From Nonomuraea aurantiaca (GTDB lineage: Bacteria > Actinomycetota > Actinomycetes > Streptosporangiales > Streptosporangiaceae): a stretch of 64,000 nucleotides of DNA. A program made the position numbers and the translations under genes. The notes under the pieces are model-generated. The model made no database searches. It had not been told where the DNA came from and was given only the letters and a program-made list of their open reading frames with translations. Shown here piece after piece: positions 13,572 to 50,555 of this stretch (its first letter is position 1; each line of letters starts with the position of its first letter). The DNA lies in the NCBI RefSeq assembly GCF_020215705.1, contig NZ_JAIWNB010000002.1, forward strand, positions 682,001-746,000, given 5' to 3'.

Positions 13572-14237
13572 ATGATCCTGCAAACTGGCGGCGAGGGCAT
13601 GGTCCGGGCGATGCCCGATCCGTGTACCTGTGGCGTTGTGACCACCCTCCAGCAGATACTGTCCGGCGCCGGGATCGTCGCCCAGGAGAGCCCGCTGCGC
13701 AGGTCTGGCCGGGTGCTCAGACCGGCGCGGACGCCCGCGGGGATCGTCGTGGCGCTCACGCTGACCACCGGGCTGTGGCTCGCCGCCGCCGAGGTGGTCT
13801 CCGCCCTGCTGGGCAGGCCGCTCGGCTGGCTTCCGGTGTCCGACCTCCTCGACCTCGCGGCCCATCGCGCCTGGGGGCAGCTGACGCTGCCCGCCCTCGT
13901 GACCATGGCCGTGGGGGTCGTGATGTTGCTGCTGGCCGCCGTACCCGGCCGGTGCCGGCTCGTACCGGTCGAGACGTCGGATCCGCTGATCGTCATCGGC
14001 ATCACCAGGGCCGGCCTCCGCCGTACGCTGCGGGCCGTCGCCCAGGAGGTCGACGGCGTGCAACGAGCGCGGGTACGGCTGCGCAGGCGGACGATCGAGG
14101 TCATGGTCATCACCGGCCCGGAGAGCTCCGGCTCGATGCTCAAGCAGGTCGGCACCGCGGTCGGTGACAGGCTGGCGGGCGTGGGCACCCTGGCCGCGGG
14201 CGAGGTCGTCGTGCGACTGCGCCGGAGGGGGTTGTGA
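13572..14237 (+). CDS. DUF6286-like membrane protein of the Asp23/AmaP envelope group
   Basis: A 221-residue protein with two TM helices (about residues 58-80 and 110-130). The cytoplasmic C-terminal domain (LIVIGITRAGLRRTLRAVAQ, then VDGVQRARVRLRRRTIEVMV) resembles DUF6286 and the Asp23/AmaP alkaline-shock group. The start is uncertain. The ATG at 13572 has no ribosome binding site, and ATGs at 13599 and 13611 and a GTG near 13638 are in frame and plausible. Its stop overlaps the ATG of an 11-codon ORF, which in turn overlaps the AmaP-like gene, so all three are coupled. The Asp23 gene usually found in such clusters is absent. Confidence 0.7.
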   Translation: MILQTGGEGMVRAMPDPCTCGVVTTLQQILSGAGIVAQESPLRRSGRVLRPARTPAGIVVALTLTTGLWLAAAEVVSALLGRPLGWLPVSDLLDLAAHRAWGQLTLPALVTMAVGVVMLLLAAVPGRCRLVPVETSDPLIVIGITRAGLRRTLRAVAQEVDGVQRARVRLRRRTIEVMVITGPESSGSMLKQVGTAVGDRLAGVGTLAAGEVVVRLRRRGL

Positions 14238-14291
14238 TGCGGCGGCACGCGGGCGACCGGAAGGGGCTGTGATGCGGCAGTACGCGGGCAA
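14222..14291 (+). repeat. 35-bp tandem duplication covering a ribosome binding site and start codon
   Basis: Copy 1 is 14222-14256 and copy 2 is 14257-14291; 30 of 35 positions match and the match continues 5 bp further. Each copy carries a purine-rich ribosome binding site and TGATG, the overlap of a stop and a start codon. The result is a short ORF between two membrane-protein genes. Confidence 0.85.
14237..14272 (+). CDS. 11-codon ORF created by the tandem duplication
   Basis: ATG at 14237 to TGA at 14270-14272 encodes MRRHAGDRKGL. It overlaps the upstream stop (TGATG) and the downstream ATG (TGATG), and has GGAGGGG upstream. The peptide matches the N-terminus of the following protein (MRQYAGNRIGL) at 7 of 11 residues, so it is a copy of that gene's start. 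Whether it is translated, and acts as a coupling leader or is just a scar, is not known. Confidence 0.5.
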   Translation: MRRHAGDRKGL

Positions 14292-14772
14292 CCGGATCGG
14301 CCTGGCCGTGGTCGGCGGGCTGCTGCTGCTCCTGGGCGGCTACGCCTGGCTGCGCGGTAAGGACAAGCTGCCGGGTCTGTCGCCGCGCGCCAAGGTGCTG
14401 CCGGACCACACCGCCAAGCTCGTCGCCGACCAGGTCTGGGCCTTGTGGCTGGTGGCGCTGGTCATGCTGGTGCTGGCGCTGGTCACGTTCCGCTGGCTGC
14501 TGCTCTGCCTGGGGTGGGGCCGCCGCGGGTTCCGTAGCGGCACGGGCACGGCCATGCTCTGCATCGGCCTGAAGGACGTGGAGGGCCTCACCCGGGTCAG
14601 CGCCCGCGTGGTCGGGGACGCCGCCCGCCTGCGCATCTCCCTCTGCTGCCCCGCCTCGGCCGACGTCGGCGCGGTGGTCCACAAACTGGACAAGGAGATC
14701 GTCAGCCGGATCCGCAGGGAGGTCCGTGACGACGAGGTCGGCGCGGTGGTCCGGGTCCACGTCCGCCGCTGA
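14272..14772 (+). CDS. AmaP-like alkaline-shock membrane anchor protein
   Basis: A 166-residue protein with two TM helices (IGLAVVGGLLLLLGGYAWL near residues 8-28 and LWLVALVMLVLALVTFRWLL near 58-80). A cytoplasmic domain follows (ISLCCPASADVGAVVHKLDK, then EIVSRIRREV), typical of AmaP proteins that tether Asp23 to the membrane. The ATG is preceded by GGAAGGGG in the second copy of the 35-bp duplication. It is the last gene of the DUF6286-AmaP pair. A role in envelope homeostasis follows from the family only. Confidence 0.75.
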   Translation: MRQYAGNRIGLAVVGGLLLLLGGYAWLRGKDKLPGLSPRAKVLPDHTAKLVADQVWALWLVALVMLVLALVTFRWLLLCLGWGRRGFRSGTGTAMLCIGLKDVEGLTRVSARVVGDAARLRISLCCPASADVGAVVHKLDKEIVSRIRREVRDDEVGAVVRVHVRR

Positions 14773-15334: not shown

Positions 15335-16207
15335 TTAAATCGGCCGTACTGAGGCCGGGACGCCCTCGAAGTCGGCGCTGCGGGAGGTCTCGGCCCACCG
15401 CTCGACCTCGTCCAGGCCACGCCGGTACGCGCCCGAGATGCGCTCGACCGCCTCGCGCCCGAGCGGCAACCGCAGCGGCACCTCGTCACTGTGCGCGAGG
15501 GACACGATGATCTCGGCCGCCCGCGCCGGGTCGCCTTCCTGGCGGCCGTCGGCCCCCGCCATGTCCGCGCGAACGTTGGCCAGCAGGTCACGGTAGGTCT
15601 CGGATTCCTCGACGAACTCCAGCACGTCGTTGGCGTGGAAGTCGGTCCTGAACCGGCTGGGCTCGACGATCATCACCCGGATCCCGAGCGGTGCGACCTC
15701 CCCGGCCAGGGCTTCGGACCAGCCTTCGAGGGCGAACTTCGACGCGGAGTACGCCGACACGCCGGGGAAGGACATCCGCCCACCCTGGCTGCTCATCTGC
15801 ACGATCGTGCCGGTGCCCCGCGCGTGCATCGCGGGCAACGCCGCGCGGACGAGCGCGGCCGGGCCGAACAGGTGCAGGTCCATCAGCTCACGCAGTTGCG
15901 CGTCGCCGATCTCCTCGACCGCGCCGACCATGCCCCGGCCCGCGTTGTTGACGAGTACGTCGAGCTGCCCGAAGTGGTCGAGGGTGTCGCGTACGAGGTC
16001 CGCGGCGGCGGTGGTGTCCCGGACGTCGAACGTCGCGATCAGGCAGTCGTCCGGGTAGGCGGCCTTCAGGTCGGCCACGCTCTCGGGCCGGCGTACCGCC
16101 GCCACCACGTGGTCGCCCGCCGCGAGCGCCGCCTCCGCGAGTGCGCGGCCGAGGCCGCGGGACGCGCCGGTGATGATCCAGGTCTGTGTCTGTGTCTGTG
16201 TCGTCAT
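15335..16207 (-). CDS. Short-chain dehydrogenase/reductase
   Basis: A 290-residue classical SDR. The cofactor motif TGASRGLG lies near residue 13, NNAGRG follows in the next strand, and the catalytic YSASK with the upstream Ser (QMSSQGG) is intact. The ATG at 16207 is chosen because the motif must lie close to the N-terminus; the frame stays open upstream only through the palindromic repeats. A run of three TGTGTC units encodes a Gln-Thr repeat at residues 4-9. It is the first gene of an SDR-MerR operon. The substrate is unknown. Confidence 0.88.
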   Translation of the reverse strand: MTTQTQTQTWIITGASRGLGRALAEAALAAGDHVVAAVRRPESVADLKAAYPDDCLIATFDVRDTTAAADLVRDTLDHFGQLDVLVNNAGRGMVGAVEEIGDAQLRELMDLHLFGPAALVRAALPAMHARGTGTIVQMSSQGGRMSFPGVSAYSASKFALEGWSEALAGEVAPLGIRVMIVEPSRFRTDFHANDVLEFVEESETYRDLLANVRADMAGADGRQEGDPARAAEIIVSLAHSDEVPLRLPLGREAVERISGAYRRGLDEVERWAETSRSADFEGVPASVRPI

Positions 16208-16223
16208 GTCGGCGACGCTATGG

Positions 16224-16294
16224 CTTCGAGCGCGCTCGAACGCAAACCCGCTTCGAGCGCGCTCGAACGCAAACCCGCTTCGAGCGCGAACCCG
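16224..16294. repeat. 27-bp tandem repeats, each with a perfect 16-bp palindrome, upstream of SDR-merR
   Basis: Two identical 27-bp units (16224-16250 and 16251-16277) each contain the palindrome TTCGAGCGCGCTCGAA (16225-16240 and 16252-16267). A third copy (16278-16294) lacks 10 internal bases. Further TTTGAACG/GCGCTCG half-site variants run to about 16335. The array fills the 133-bp gap upstream of the SDR gene. Spacing of 27 bp puts the palindromes on roughly one face every 2.5 turns. A regulator-binding array is the likely role. Confidence 0.8.
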
Positions 16295-26445: not shown

Positions 26446-27921
26446 CTAGAGCGCGATGGCCGAGCGGAGGGCCAGGCCCGCGCCCAGCAGCATCACCATG
26501 CCGGCCGTGCCCAGCGGCGCCAGGGCGGACAGCCGGGCGGCCAGGCCCCGTCCCCGTGAGGCGCGGCGTTCGAGGCGGTCGACGAGCTTGACCAGCAGCA
26601 GGCCCGTCACGGTAAGCGTCGCCGCCATGCCGATGCCGTACGCGGTGACCAGCGCCACCCCGAACCAGGTACGACCCAGCCCGATCGCCCCCAGCAGCAC
26701 GATGAGCGCCGACGGGCTCGGCACCAGCCCGCCCGCCACCCCCATCCCCAGCAGCCCGGCCCGCGTCGAGCGCTCGCGCCCATGCCCGTGACCGTGCCCA
26801 TGGCCATGGCCATGGCCATGCCCGTGACCGTGACCGTGACCGTGACCGTGGCCATGTCCGTGCCCGTGATCGGTGGTGCGGCGGGTGGACAGGAGCAGGC
26901 GCAGGCCGATGAAGGCGATCAGCAGGCCGCTGGCCACCCCCAGCCACCCCAGCACCGACTCCCCGGCGAGCGCCGTGAACGCGCTCAGCAGCAGCCCCAC
27001 CACCAGCACCCCGACCGTGTGCGTGGCCGTCACCGTGGCCCCCACGACCAGGGCGTCACGCGGCCGTCCGCGCCGCCCGGCCAGGTACGCGGCCATGATC
27101 GTCTTGCCGTGCCCGGGGATCAGCGCGTGCCCGGCCCCGAGGAGCATGGCCAGCGCCACAGCCAGCAGCCCGAGCGGCACGGTCAGCGAGTCGGCGCCGA
27201 CCAGGCCGGTGAAAGTCCGGTCCAGCGCCGCCAGCGCGTCCCCGATCGGCCCGCCGACGCTGATCGTGCCGAGCCCGGAAGGCGTGCCGCCGGAGCCGGG
27301 GGAGCCGCCGGACAGGGCGGAGGCGGCGCCGCCGACGGTGACGGCGGCCGTGCGCTGGTCGAGCGGGTCGGCCAGGAGGTCCTGCGGGTACCTGCGCAGC
27401 TCGTCGCTCACGCTGACCGACGGCACGGACGACCGGGTCAGCCGTACCCCGTCACCGACGGCGGTGATCTCGCGCCAGCCGATCCGGTCCTGCTCGAACG
27501 CGTCGGTGAAGGACACCGCGCCCGACACCCGGGCCTCGGCGACCAGCCCGCAGGTCAGGCGGCTGGTCTGCAGGCCGCCCTGCCCCGGCGCGTAGGCGAA
27601 CGCCGAACGCGACACCCGCCACGGCACCGCCGTGCCCCGCACGGTGAGCCGCTGGGCGGCGGCCAGCGCGGCGCAGGTCCTGGCCGCGTACGAGCCGTCC
27701 ACGCCCGGTTTCGCCTGGAGCGTCGGCAGCTCCGCCGCGTCCACGACCGCCTCGTTCTCCACCCGGTCGGGCCGCAGGCGCAGCCCGTTGTAGTGGTTGA
27801 CGGTGAAGTTGCCGAGCGGATGCCTGGCCGCCGTCTCCGCCTGCGCCGCGGTCGTGAACAGGATTGACACGCCCATCGACAACAGCAGGCCCACGAGCAG
27901 GCCGAGCCGGAGCACCCTCAT
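26446..27921 (-). CDS. NicO/RcnA-like nickel-cobalt type membrane transporter with His-Gly loop
   Basis: A 491-residue protein. A signal-like N-terminus (MRVLRLGLLVGLLLSMGVSI) is followed by an extracytoplasmic domain of about 200 residues with Cys pairs (RTCAALAAAQ, LTCGLV). The C-terminal NicO permease has six TM helices, GAGHALIPGHGKTIMAAYLA as the signature, and a cytoplasmic loop with 15 consecutive His-Gly dipeptides. NicO/RcnA proteins move nickel or cobalt, usually outward; the direction and metal here are not shown by the sequence. The ATG overlaps the stop of the TPR gene (ATGA). It is the last gene of the DUF4331-TPR-NicO module. Confidence 0.88.
   Translation of the reverse strand: MRVLRLGLLVGLLLSMGVSILFTTAAQAETAARHPLGNFTVNHYNGLRLRPDRVENEAVVDAAELPTLQAKPGVDGSYAARTCAALAAAQRLTVRGTAVPWRVSRSAFAYAPGQGGLQTSRLTCGLVAEARVSGAVSFTDAFEQDRIGWREITAVGDGVRLTRSSVPSVSVSDELRRYPQDLLADPLDQRTAAVTVGGAASALSGGSPGSGGTPSGLGTISVGGPIGDALAALDRTFTGLVGADSLTVPLGLLAVALAMLLGAGHALIPGHGKTIMAAYLAGRRGRPRDALVVGATVTATHTVGVLVVGLLLSAFTALAGESVLGWLGVASGLLIAFIGLRLLLSTRRTTDHGHGHGHGHGHGHGHGHGHGHGHGHGHGHGRERSTRAGLLGMGVAGGLVPSPSALIVLLGAIGLGRTWFGVALVTAYGIGMAATLTVTGLLLVKLVDRLERRASRGRGLAARLSALAPLGTAGMVMLLGAGLALRSAIAL
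26779..26868 (-). repeat. (Gly-His)15-coding repeat
   Basis: Thirty codons alternate His and Gly without interruption inside the NicO-like gene. The DNA is a mixed GTGACC/GTGCCC/ATGGCC hexamer repeat, prone to slippage in 6-bp steps that keep the frame. The stretch is a likely metal-binding cytoplasmic loop. Confidence 0.95.
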
Positions 27922-43195: not shown

Positions 43196-47063
<3,868 letters not shown>

Positions 47064-47194: not shown

Positions 47195-50107
47195 GTGACT
47201 ACGGGGAACTCTGAAGGCGGCCAAACCGCCAGGCAGGCCCGCGGAAAGCGGCTGCTGCCCCGGCTGGGGCTGCGTAACTGGCGCGTGAGATGGCGTCTCA
47301 CCGCGCTGGTCCTCGTTCCCACCATGGCGGGGGTCGTGCTCGGGGGAGCGCGCGTGGTGGGCTCGGTCCAGAGCATCGGCGACTACGACCGCACGGCGCT
47401 CGCCGCGGAGCAGGCCGGTCACATCCGCGACCTGGTGCAGGCGCTCGGGCTGGAGCGTGACACCGGCGGCTGGCTGGCCGCCTCCAGCAAGGTGCGCAAG
47501 AAGCTCACCGAGCCGTACAAGGAGCGCAAGGCGAAGGTCGACGCGCTGGTCAAGACCGTGCAGGCCGACATGGCGGTCATGGACGAGTCCTACGGCGACC
47601 GCGTGCTCAACGCGGTCAAGCGGGCCCGCTACGACTTCAACGTCCTGAACAGGACCCGCAGCGAGGGCCAGAAGGACACCACCCGCTACGACTCGCTGCT
47701 CGACACGCTGCTCAAGCTGCACGACGAGCTGAGCCTGCTCAGCGACGACTCGCAGATCATCGGCCAGTTCCGCGCGCTGAGCGCGCTGGCGCGCGCGAAG
47801 GAGGAGGTGTCCAAGCAGCGTGTCCAGCTGCTCAAGGGCTACTACAACTCCGCGAGCGTGGACGCCAAGGAGGTCGAGCGGTTCATCGCCTCCAACGCCA
47901 GGCAGCGCGCGGAGATCGCCTCCGTCGGCCAGGAGGCCGGACCGGTCGTCGGCCTCGCGCTGTCGAAGGCGCTGACGGCGCCCGAGTACTACAACACCGA
48001 GCTGACCAAGGCCCGCGCCATCACGCTCGCCGCCGGCAAGGCGCCGGGCGTCAGGATCAGGGACGACCTGCTCGCCCAGACCGACCGCAAGAAGCCGGCG
48101 CCGGACCAGTGGTTCGACGACAACGCCACCGCCATCGACATCCTGCACTCCATCGAGGTCGACCTGAGCCAGAAGGTGGCGCTGCGCAGCCAGGAGCTAC
48201 GCGACTCCGAGACCCGAAACGCGATCATCGCCGGTGTGCTCATCGTCGCGCTGCTGCTGCTCGTCCTGCTGTTCACCGTCGCGATCGCCCGCTCGATGGT
48301 CACGCCGCTGCGCCGCCTGCGCACCGAGGCCCTGGAGATCGCCGGGTTCCGGTTGCCCGACGTGGTGCGCAAGCTCCGCGTCACCGGTGACGCCCCCGCC
48401 GACGTCCGCCCGATCGAGATCGAGGGCGACGACGAGATCGGCGACGTGGCCAGGGCCTTCGACCAGGTGCACCGCCAGGCCGTACGGCTGGCGGGCGAGG
48501 AGGCCGACCTCCGCAGCAACATCAGCTCGATGTTCGTCAACCTCTCGCGCCGCACCCAGACGCTGGTCGAGCGGCAGATCTCGCTGATCGATGGCCTGGA
48601 GAAGGGCGAGCAGGACGGCGCCCGCTTGGCCGACCTGTTCAAGCTCGACCACCTGGCCACCCGCATGCGGCGCAACTCGGAGAACCTCCTGGTCCTGGCC
48701 GGGCACGAGGCCACCCGCAGGCGCAGCCAGCCGGCCAAGCTGGTCGACGTGGTCCGCGCGGCGCTGTCGGAGGTCGAGGGCTACGAGCGCGTGCAGGTCA
48801 AGGTGCACCGGGCCACCTCGGTGCTCGGCAGCGCCGCCAACGACCTCGTCCACCTGGTGGCCGAGCTGGTCGAGAACGCCATCCAGTTCTCCCCGAACAA
48901 CTCCAACGTCGTGGTGTCGAGCAGCCTCATCGAAGGCGGCGGCGCGCTGCTGTCGGTGAACGACGTCGGCATCAGCATGACCGAGGACGAGCTCGCCGAG
49001 GCCAACCGCCGCCTGGCCGAGCCGCCGGTCGTGGACGTGTCGGTGTCGCGGCGGATGGGCCTGTTCGTGGTCGGCCGGCTGGCGCTGCGCCACGGCATCC
49101 GGGTCCAGCTGCGCAAGGGCGAAGGCGCCGGGCTGATCGCCATGGTGCTGCTGCCCCCGTCGCTGATCCCCGACGGCTCCCGGCCACCGCTGCCCCAGCG
49201 GCCCGCGTTCGGCGCCGGCACGCCGCCGAACGGCATGCCCGCGAACGGCGCGCCTGCGGCCACGCCGACCAACGGCGTGCCCGCGCCCAACGGCACGTTC
49301 CGGTCGTTCGCCAGCTTCGACTCCTTCGACACCGGCGCCGGGGCATCGCGTCCCCCCTTCACGGCCGACACGGACGGCGGGGCCCACCGGCCGTCCTTCG
49401 ACTCGGGCAACTACCCGTCGTACCCGAGCCAGTCGCCGTCGTACCCCGACCCGGGTCAGCCGCCGTCGTATCCCACTCCGGACCAGGGAGCGCGGTCGCC
49501 CGGCCGGGCGTATCCGGCGCAGCCGCCGGCGTCCGGGCCGCGCTATCCGGCCCAGCCCCCGGCGTACCCCAGCCAGGAGCGCACCGGCTCCTTCCCCTCC
49601 TACCCCGGTCCCGGCTCTGATGGTGCGTTCCAGACGCCCTACAGCACCGGTGAGCCGCGCAGGCAGGACGCTCCGCCGTCGGTGGACGTCTCGCCCATGG
49701 AGCCCGGCCAGGAGGAGTTCCTGCCCATCTTCGCCGCCGTGGAATCCGCCTGGTTCCGCCGGCCGACGGAAGAGCGGGCACCGGATTCGCCGAGCCGGGA
49801 TGAGTCGACCCCCACACAAGCCATACTCTCTGTGGAGGATTCGTGGCGAAACCCCGCTGACGCCGGTTGGCAGGCGGCGGCCGCCGCGAGCGATCCCAGC
49901 CTTGGGGGCACCACGTCCTCGGGGCTACCCAAGCGCACTCCCAAGGCGAACCTGGTTCCTGGTACGGCCGGCCAACCGCAGCAGTCGCAGCGGCAGGCCC
50001 CGATGCCACCGGTCTCCGCCGAGCGATCGCGCAGCAGGTTGGCGAGCTTCCAGCAGGGAGTACGCCGGGGTCGTGCGGAAGTACGTGGACAGGAGGAACA
50101 ACAGTGA
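47195..50107 (+). CDS. cvnA: CvnA-type nitrate/nitrite-sensing-domain histidine kinase (conservon gene A)
   Basis: A 970-residue membrane kinase. TM1 lies near residues 33-55 and TM2 near 345-370, with a NIT-type four-helix sensor domain outside. HAMP and kinase parts follow (LSRRTQTLVERQISLIDGLE, LDHLATRMRRNSENLLVLAG, then LVAELVENAIQFSPN as N box and SVSRRMGLFVVGRLALRHG). The last 300 residues are a Pro/Ser/Tyr-rich tail (for example SYPSQSPSYPDPGQPPSYP). The start is GTG at 47195. It is the first gene of cvnABCD. NIT-domain family membership does not prove that nitrate is the signal. Confidence 0.92.
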   Translation: MTTGNSEGGQTARQARGKRLLPRLGLRNWRVRWRLTALVLVPTMAGVVLGGARVVGSVQSIGDYDRTALAAEQAGHIRDLVQALGLERDTGGWLAASSKVRKKLTEPYKERKAKVDALVKTVQADMAVMDESYGDRVLNAVKRARYDFNVLNRTRSEGQKDTTRYDSLLDTLLKLHDELSLLSDDSQIIGQFRALSALARAKEEVSKQRVQLLKGYYNSASVDAKEVERFIASNARQRAEIASVGQEAGPVVGLALSKALTAPEYYNTELTKARAITLAAGKAPGVRIRDDLLAQTDRKKPAPDQWFDDNATAIDILHSIEVDLSQKVALRSQELRDSETRNAIIAGVLIVALLLLVLLFTVAIARSMVTPLRRLRTEALEIAGFRLPDVVRKLRVTGDAPADVRPIEIEGDDEIGDVARAFDQVHRQAVRLAGEEADLRSNISSMFVNLSRRTQTLVERQISLIDGLEKGEQDGARLADLFKLDHLATRMRRNSENLLVLAGHEATRRRSQPAKLVDVVRAALSEVEGYERVQVKVHRATSVLGSAANDLVHLVAELVENAIQFSPNNSNVVVSSSLIEGGGALLSVNDVGISMTEDELAEANRRLAEPPVVDVSVSRRMGLFVVGRLALRHGIRVQLRKGEGAGLIAMVLLPPSLIPDGSRPPLPQRPAFGAGTPPNGMPANGAPAATPTNGVPAPNGTFRSFASFDSFDTGAGASRPPFTADTDGGAHRPSFDSGNYPSYPSQSPSYPDPGQPPSYPTPDQGARSPGRAYPAQPPASGPRYPAQPPAYPSQERTGSFPSYPGPGSDGAFQTPYSTGEPRRQDAPPSVDVSPMEPGQEEFLPIFAAVESAWFRRPTEERAPDSPSRDESTPTQAILSVEDSWRNPADAGWQAAAAASDPSLGGTTSSGLPKRTPKANLVPGTAGQPQQSQRQAPMPPVSAERSRSRLASFQQGVRRGRAEVRGQEEQQ

Positions 50108-50132
50108 TTGAGCGTCCTGCCGGGGAGGGCGA

Positions 50133-50555
50133 GTGACCACCCTTAGCCATGAGGCCCACAGGTTCGACTGGCTGATCACCGACTTCGTGCGGAACACGCC
50201 CGGAGTCGCGCATGCCGTCGTCGTCTCGGCCGACGGCCTCTGCCTGGCCAGCTCCGAGGGCTTCCCGCCGGACCGCGCCGACCAGCTCGCCGCGGTGTCC
50301 GCGGGCCTGCTGAGCCTGACGGTGGGCGCGTCCCGGGTGTTCGAGGGCGGCTCCGTGTCGCAGACCGTCGTCGAGATGCAGCGCGGGCTGCTCGTCGTGA
50401 TGGCGATCAGCGACGGCTCCGTCCTGACCGTGTTGGCGGGGATCGACTGCGACATGGGACTGGTGGCGTATCAGATGACGCTGCTCGTCGACCGGGCGGG
50501 CCAGGCGCTGACGCCGGCCCTGCGCGCGGAGCTTCAGGCGGCCAGGACGCGGTGA
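50133..50555 (+). CDS. cvnB: CvnB roadblock/LC7 domain protein
   Basis: A 140-residue roadblock/LC7 protein (FDWLITDFVRNTPGVAHAVV, then VSADGLCLASSEGF and GQALTPALRAELQAA). In conservons it forms a complex with CvnA, CvnC and the CvnD GTPase at the membrane; roadblock proteins act as GTPase-activating or scaffold subunits. CGGGGAGGG lies ahead of the GTG start at 50133. It starts 26 bp after cvnA. Confidence 0.95.
   Translation: MTTLSHEAHRFDWLITDFVRNTPGVAHAVVVSADGLCLASSEGFPPDRADQLAAVSAGLLSLTVGASRVFEGGSVSQTVVEMQRGLLVVMAISDGSVLTVLAGIDCDMGLVAYQMTLLVDRAGQALTPALRAELQAARTR

Follow-up and report, generated by a model that had tools for sequence, protein, structure and literature searches.

How can two genes whose stop and start codons overlap keep their translation linked once a duplication has come to lie between them? 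The question is raised by a junction in Nonomuraea aurantiaca, studied here within a stretch of 64,000 nucleotides (contig NZ_JAIWNB010000002.1, positions 682,001 to 746,000; hereafter the window), where a tandem repeat between a DUF6286 gene and an AmaP-like gene holds a very short open reading frame (ORF). The features of the junction, in window coordinates, are as follows.

13572–14237, forward strand: gene of the DUF6286 membrane protein (Pfam PF19803, E 8e-20), with its TGA stop at 14235–14237
14222–14256, forward strand: copy 1 of the 35-bp repeat, with the DUF6286 end, the purine-rich ribosome-binding site (RBS) GGAGGGGG, TGATG and a copy of the codons with which the AmaP-like gene begins
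14235–14239, forward strand: first TGATG, overlap of the DUF6286 stop with the mini-ORF start
14237–14272, forward strand: candidate relay mini-ORF MRRHAGDRKGL, seven codons from the AmaP-like start and four from the DUF6286 end
14257–14291, forward strand: copy 2 of the 35-bp repeat, with the copied DUF6286 end, RBS GGAAGGGG, TGATG and the genuine first AmaP-like codons
14270–14274, forward strand: second TGATG, overlap of the mini-ORF stop with the AmaP-like start
14272–14772, forward strand: gene of the AmaP-like membrane protein (166 aa), whose start MRQY is kept in most of the genus

The sequence confirms the two observations on which the preliminary description was built, namely the repeat with its duplicated signals and the ORF of 11 codons with coupling at either end. 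The two copies agree at 30 of 35 positions, and each carries a TGATG and, upstream of the start, a purine-rich RBS (14224–14231 and 14259–14266, respectively); all five mismatches are transitions and none lies within the 11-nt core TGTGATGCGGC. The Tandem Repeats Finder score of 115 is the third highest among the 18 rows for the window, and a 100-base query spanning the repeat matches the genome (11.8 Mb) once. The final codons and the stop of DUF6286 fall within copy 1; the start of this gene is placed at 13638, not 13572, by an alternative gene model and in the alignment. Genes are regarded as a coupled pair when stop and start overlap as NTGA or as TGATG/TAATG, and such an overlap is found at either end of the mini-ORF. 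The RNA around the two starts does not exceed shuffled sequences in structure (z -0.47 and 0.52).

The origin of the ORF has to be described somewhat differently. MRRHAGDRKGL had been read as a copy of the AmaP-like start MRQYAGNRIGL, which holds for its first seven codons; the remaining four (RKGL) derive from the DUF6286 end (RRGL), making the ORF a fusion, and because of this second source the likeness to the AmaP-like RIGL is incidental. The frame had been explained by a repeat length that is not a multiple of three, which is incomplete: for coupling at both ends after a tandem copy across TGATG the length must be 2 modulo 3 and no stop may intervene, so that about one duplication in three would yield such a frame. 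The term 'overprinted mini-gene' is not apt either, since the ORF lies in inserted DNA, has one nucleotide in common with each neighbouring gene, and has counterparts in other clades whose peptides are unrelated to it.

The window holds other repeats. At 16223–16288 a perfect 27-bp repeat (2.4 copies, 100% identity) lengthens, by units of nine residues, the open frame that lies immediately upstream of a minus-strand gene (15335–16207, modelled start 16207), judged by eye to encode a short-chain dehydrogenase. Units of 6, 18 and 36 bp are repeated at 26778–26869, towards the C-terminus of the protein of minus-strand ORF 26446–27921, which has no Pfam hit at E 1e-5.

In a tree of the two proteins the nearest relatives are the sister pair Nonomuraea sp. 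NEAU-A123 (G043) and N. guangzhouensis (G019), both of which have a plain TGATG junction with no second copy and the same protein start. Since both are free of it, the 35-bp copy is a local scar and not a conserved element. Just outside this pair, N. rhizosphaerae (G032) carries a 41-bp insertion with the copied start MRQYAGCQVREAR, either an independent event or a diverged relative of the duplication in the window. The absence of the copy beside an identical protein start is what had been expected of a neutral scar, and as far as the sequence of the copy goes this expectation stands; the mini-ORF would then owe its frame to a one-in-three chance and be irrelevant to the AmaP-like gene, which would start from its own RBS. 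Yet the inserts found across the genus keep their chains of coupled frames beyond what shuffling gives, as set out below.

We favour, at a probability of roughly 70%, the reading that the mini-ORF is a translational relay that preserves coupling under selection, its peptide being irrelevant. In a reporter study coupling was almost lost at a spacing of about 20 nt (PMC10666635), and a review describes it as 3- to 10-fold less efficient up to about +40 nt (PMC12548453). Because published coupling falls with spacing, an insert of 35 nt would cut or weaken it unless the insert were translated. By separating the genes by 35 nt the tandem duplication would have gone past what termination–reinitiation reportedly bridges well; instead, ribosomes ending DUF6286 would restart at the overlapping ATG, read the mini-ORF of 11 codons and reinitiate a second time where its stop overlaps the AmaP-like ATG, assisted at both points by the copied RBS. 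A length of 2 modulo 3 with no intervening stop would have let coupling survive and so made the duplication tolerable, whereas inserts that broke the relay would have been removed by selection, leaving mainly relay-forming survivors, and the peptide would have no function of its own. That ribosomes use the mini-ORF, that coupling is important since the two proteins cooperate, and that selection acts against relay-breaking inserts is what we infer. The tolerance of weaker coupling to about +40 nt in the review also means that a gap of 35 nt need not abolish coupling, and the AmaP-like gene in the window genome (G000), which retains its own RBS, could start independently.

The junction was surveyed in 54 Nonomuraea genomes, taking as offset the position of the AmaP-like start counted from the T of the DUF6286 stop codon and as insert any offset above 19 nt; a further 22 named Nonomuraea loci duplicate genomes of this set and were used for structure alignments without being counted again. 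An insert was classed as RELAY when a path leading at every stop into a start that overlaps it ran through one or more mini-ORFs and finished on the conserved AmaP-like start. The AmaP-like gene is present in all 54 genomes. The offset is -1 in one genome, 2 in 27, 3 in two, 8 in one and 25–150 in 23, which means that the genes overlap or almost adjoin in 31 genomes and are parted by an insert in 23. Fifteen inserts are RELAY, three are in-frame N-terminal extensions (two of them following relay steps), four are misframed and one has no start. Two of the misframe class (G011 and G052) are nevertheless relays in which TGACATG replaces the overlap, and three inserts (G025, G036 and G049) have no chain even by loose rules. 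A chain into the AmaP-like frame thus exists in 18 of the 23 inserts by strict rules and in 20 by loose ones, and strict coupling, direct or via a relay, in 47 of the 54 genomes. By eye, some 15–18 separate insertions can be counted on the tree. Outside the genus, 6 of 60 family loci, drawn from the best matches of a search, have an offset above 19 nt: L095 has a strict relay, L107 and L108 relays after TAGATG, L094 a loose relay, and L087 and L088 no chain.

Could the mini-ORF encode a functional small protein between the two genes? Relay peptides in the genus include MRRHMGGRSRRGER, MPARRSV followed by MRQYIRRSV, MSYWRIR, MLVPMRGL and VTGEPAKSKGEGP; several clearly copy the AmaP-like start, others bear no resemblance to it, and only close sisters have peptides in common, those of different clades being mostly unrelated. 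Peptide conservation was thus not found at the DUF6286–AmaP junction, where moreover 31 of the 54 genomes have no insert at all, and we give this explanation hardly any weight in spite of the longer frames at a second junction described below. It is about equally improbable that the extra step serves to lower or regulate the ratio of AmaP-like protein to DUF6286 protein and not to preserve coupling: each reinitiation step should cost some ribosomes, and some species (G042 and G002) have two relay steps, but neither the number of steps nor the peptide is conserved, and sister species differ freely.

Whether relays exceed chance was assessed against shuffled spacers whose length was shifted at random and whose two ends were kept, a null whose P values ignore shared ancestry. 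At the DUF6286–AmaP junction 15 of the 22 inserts with a start are RELAY against 5.2 expected (P 1.2e-6, phylogeny ignored), and RELAY or extension accounts for 18 against 11.9 (P 0.004, phylogeny ignored). Under another null, in which extensions count as success, the figures are 18 against 12.2 by strict rules (P 0.004) and 20 against 13.2 by loose rules (P 0.0009); it is because N-terminal extensions are counted that the significance of this chain null is modest.

Four coupled junctions, AmtB–GlnK, GlnK–GlnD, GcvT–GcvH and permease–OpuAC, had been chosen as controls for the frequency of inserts. Three had too few for the test: AmtB–GlnK stands at offset -1 in all 54 genomes, GcvT–GcvH at -1 in 27 of the 30 genomes examined (the others at 4, 16 and 35), and permease–OpuAC has one insert above 19 nt among the 30 genomes examined. 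GlnK–GlnD supplied a second junction.

44838–44841, forward strand: GTGA overlap of GlnK and GlnD, coupled directly in the window genome; relatives often have relay ORFs here

Inserts occur here in 45 of the 54 genomes, with offsets of 29–298: 30 are RELAY, two extensions, five misframed and eight without a start. Relays recur at this junction as at DUF6286–AmaP, and the 30 among 37 inserts with a start compare with 10.0 expected (P 1e-12, ancestry ignored). A TAG stop of GlnK cannot overlap a start as NTGA, so no such start is possible, and the seven inserts that follow a GlnK gene ending in TAG include no relay and have lengths spread over all three classes (3, 3 and 1); where GlnK ends in TGA, 28 of 38 lengths are 1 modulo 3.

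It is at GlnK–GlnD that a small protein finds some support, in frames open for up to about 80 codons and in a C-terminal motif that recurs in many species. This motif overlaps a palindrome, however, and among 20 aligned tails the single-base codon differences, 245 synonymous to 360 not against 31 to 91 expected by sites, amount to a weak excess in which transition bias is uncorrected. The palindrome itself, seen by eye in the spacers of relatives (L145–L174 and L235–L258), has paired changes: CCCGGAC...GTCCGGG, CCAGGAC...GTCCTGG and GCGCGGAC...GTCCGCGC. This suggests a conserved hairpin or a palindromic repeat inside the relay ORF. In addition, the repeat unit GATCCGCAGCG.AGCGAGGACATCC stands in tandem in some of the spacers (L157, L159 and L246). 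Among five genomes searched the unit is dispersed in G050, with 12 matches at up to two mismatches, and has no match in G000; it may be a mobile repeat of the MIRU kind.

Insertions that arose independently at a single junction constitute a natural experiment, in which insert length would be free if there were no need for coupling. We therefore compared phylogenetically independent sister pairs with unequal insert lengths and asked whether the difference is a multiple of three, a test that avoids the problem of ancestry. It is in 7 of 10 pairs at DUF6286–AmaP (P 0.02) and in 12 of 18 at GlnK–GlnD, or 19 of 28 for both junctions pooled (P 2e-4). Two kinds of control spacer behaved differently: GcvH–SdaA spacers (34 genomes), normally without a coupling motif, gave 0 of 10 pairs, and the spacers between the convergent AmaP-like and SdaA genes (22 genomes) 2 of 7. 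The frame is thus kept across relatives in spite of changed length, in 19 of 28 pairs at the coupled junctions versus 2 of 17 in the control spacers (Fisher P 2.6e-4). Among the 19, two pairs belong to uncoupled lineages (G036/G049 at DUF6286 and G029/G021 at GlnK), and in G011/G052 coupling is loose only, which speaks against an entirely clear picture. The nine remaining pairs comprise five whose members are both coupled but through unequal numbers of relay steps, and four in which at least one member is uncoupled. The excess of relays beside such control spacers is evidence that points to selection on coupling itself.

A neutral scar would leave all of this unexplained, namely the 15 relays among 22, the pattern at GlnK–GlnD and the difference between coupled junctions and controls. 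There is evidence on the other side too. Three of the 23 inserts at DUF6286–AmaP have no chain, and strict rules leave 13 of the 45 at GlnK–GlnD without one, so coupling is not indispensable. A second mini-ORF in the window is a counter-case: at 50104–50136 a 10-codon ORF (VIERPAGEGE), with GTGA coupling at both ends, stands 3' of a gene for a NIT-domain histidine kinase and before a gene that we take to be CvnB-like. At this CvnA–CvnB junction 14 of the 30 genomes examined have a relay (spacing 28 in 11, 25 in two and 82 in one), while in the remaining 16 the spacing is 24 nt, six of them being misframed and ten lacking a start. Since the relay is found in just 14 of 30, mini-ORFs coupled at both ends are not always retained, and some may be products of chance. 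On balance we regard a neutral origin of the 11-codon ORF, with no bearing on its neighbour, as unlikely.

The products of the DUF6286 and AmaP-like genes both look like small membrane proteins. The label 'AmaP-like' in the preliminary description has no direct hit behind it, the protein starting at 14272 being without an AmaP (NF033218) match in the model search, and draws its support from a paralogue in the Asp23 operon of the same genome. This operon (contig C89, 157800–161600; L292) has Asp23 hits at 158417 and 159521, followed by a DUF6286 gene at 160189 and the AmaP-like paralogue, which scores 40.5 against NF033218 (E 2e-10), below the cut-off of 55; the DUF6286 paralogue also hits the AmaP model, weakly (E 8e-5), and this paralogous pair overlaps by GTGA. 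The three Asp23 hits of the genome lie on contigs C89 and C44, none of them with the window pair, which stands apart from Asp23 as an orphan copy. When the profiles of the two proteins in the window were compared, no homology emerged (probability 1.3%), and the word DUF6286 was absent from the literature matches listed (open-licence PMC). Structure models of the two have low confidence (mean pLDDT 59.8 and 65.9); Foldseek hits to MamM C-terminal domains (TM 0.23–0.27 by query) cover no more than a single small domain, and nothing was concluded from them. A common membrane complex of the two proteins is plausible. Related species repeatedly have different inserts in the same arrangement, which suggests that linked translation of the two genes matters to the cell.

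The duplication is modest in itself, and it is as one among many relays that it is evidence of selected coupling at this junction. We lean against, without dismissing, the wider rule that a junction selected for coupling retains an insert, whatever its sequence, mainly when this reads as one or more relay ORFs coupled end to end. If it were true, relay ORFs would be a common unannotated class, constrained in frame, stop–start overlaps and RBS and free in peptide, and insert length modulo three could map genome-wide which gene pairs need coupling. The frequency of stop–start overlaps alone hardly separates selection for coupling from compactness, and the relay test requires related genomes only. 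The relays are also a warning against taking every coupled small ORF between two genes for the gene of a functional microprotein.

The idea of a relay ORF is already known from MIRUs, integron attC ORFs and bicistronic design. The original description of MIRUs, mycobacterial interspersed repetitive units, is reportedly that of Supply and colleagues in 1997. A review presents them as mobile, dispersed repeats that insert at start codons, where an internal ORF is coupled to the gene (PMC12548453). The 11-codon ORF in the window is likewise short and joined by coupling to the genes on either side. It differs in that its repeat is a local tandem copy with one match in the genome and no sign of a mobile family, and in that the insert sequences at this junction vary between clades.

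In bicistronic design, short leader cistrons are arranged as RBS, short ORF, stop–start overlap and gene. The window junction has the same order; the engineered version stands at the 5' end of the transcript, whereas the relay is natural and lies between two genes. The short ORFs in attC sites of integrons, and likewise ORF-11 of attI1, are described as having no peptide function and as taking over ribosomes from the gene before them, or loading them, and passing them to the next gene (PMC8876359). ORF-11 has 11 residues like the window ORF (PMC8876359); these ORFs sit in recombination sites, whereas that of the window arose by tandem duplication between chromosomal genes. Termination–reinitiation pairs with ATGA or TGATG have the same stop–start motifs as the window junction; such published pairs overlap or almost touch (PMC6728339, PMC10666635), whereas the window pair is bridged by a third, dispensable ORF. 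Among the matches listed (open-licence PMC), titles and abstracts hold no description of recurrent relay ORFs. What seems new here, seen against comparative controls, is that relays have arisen repeatedly at one junction and independently of sequence.
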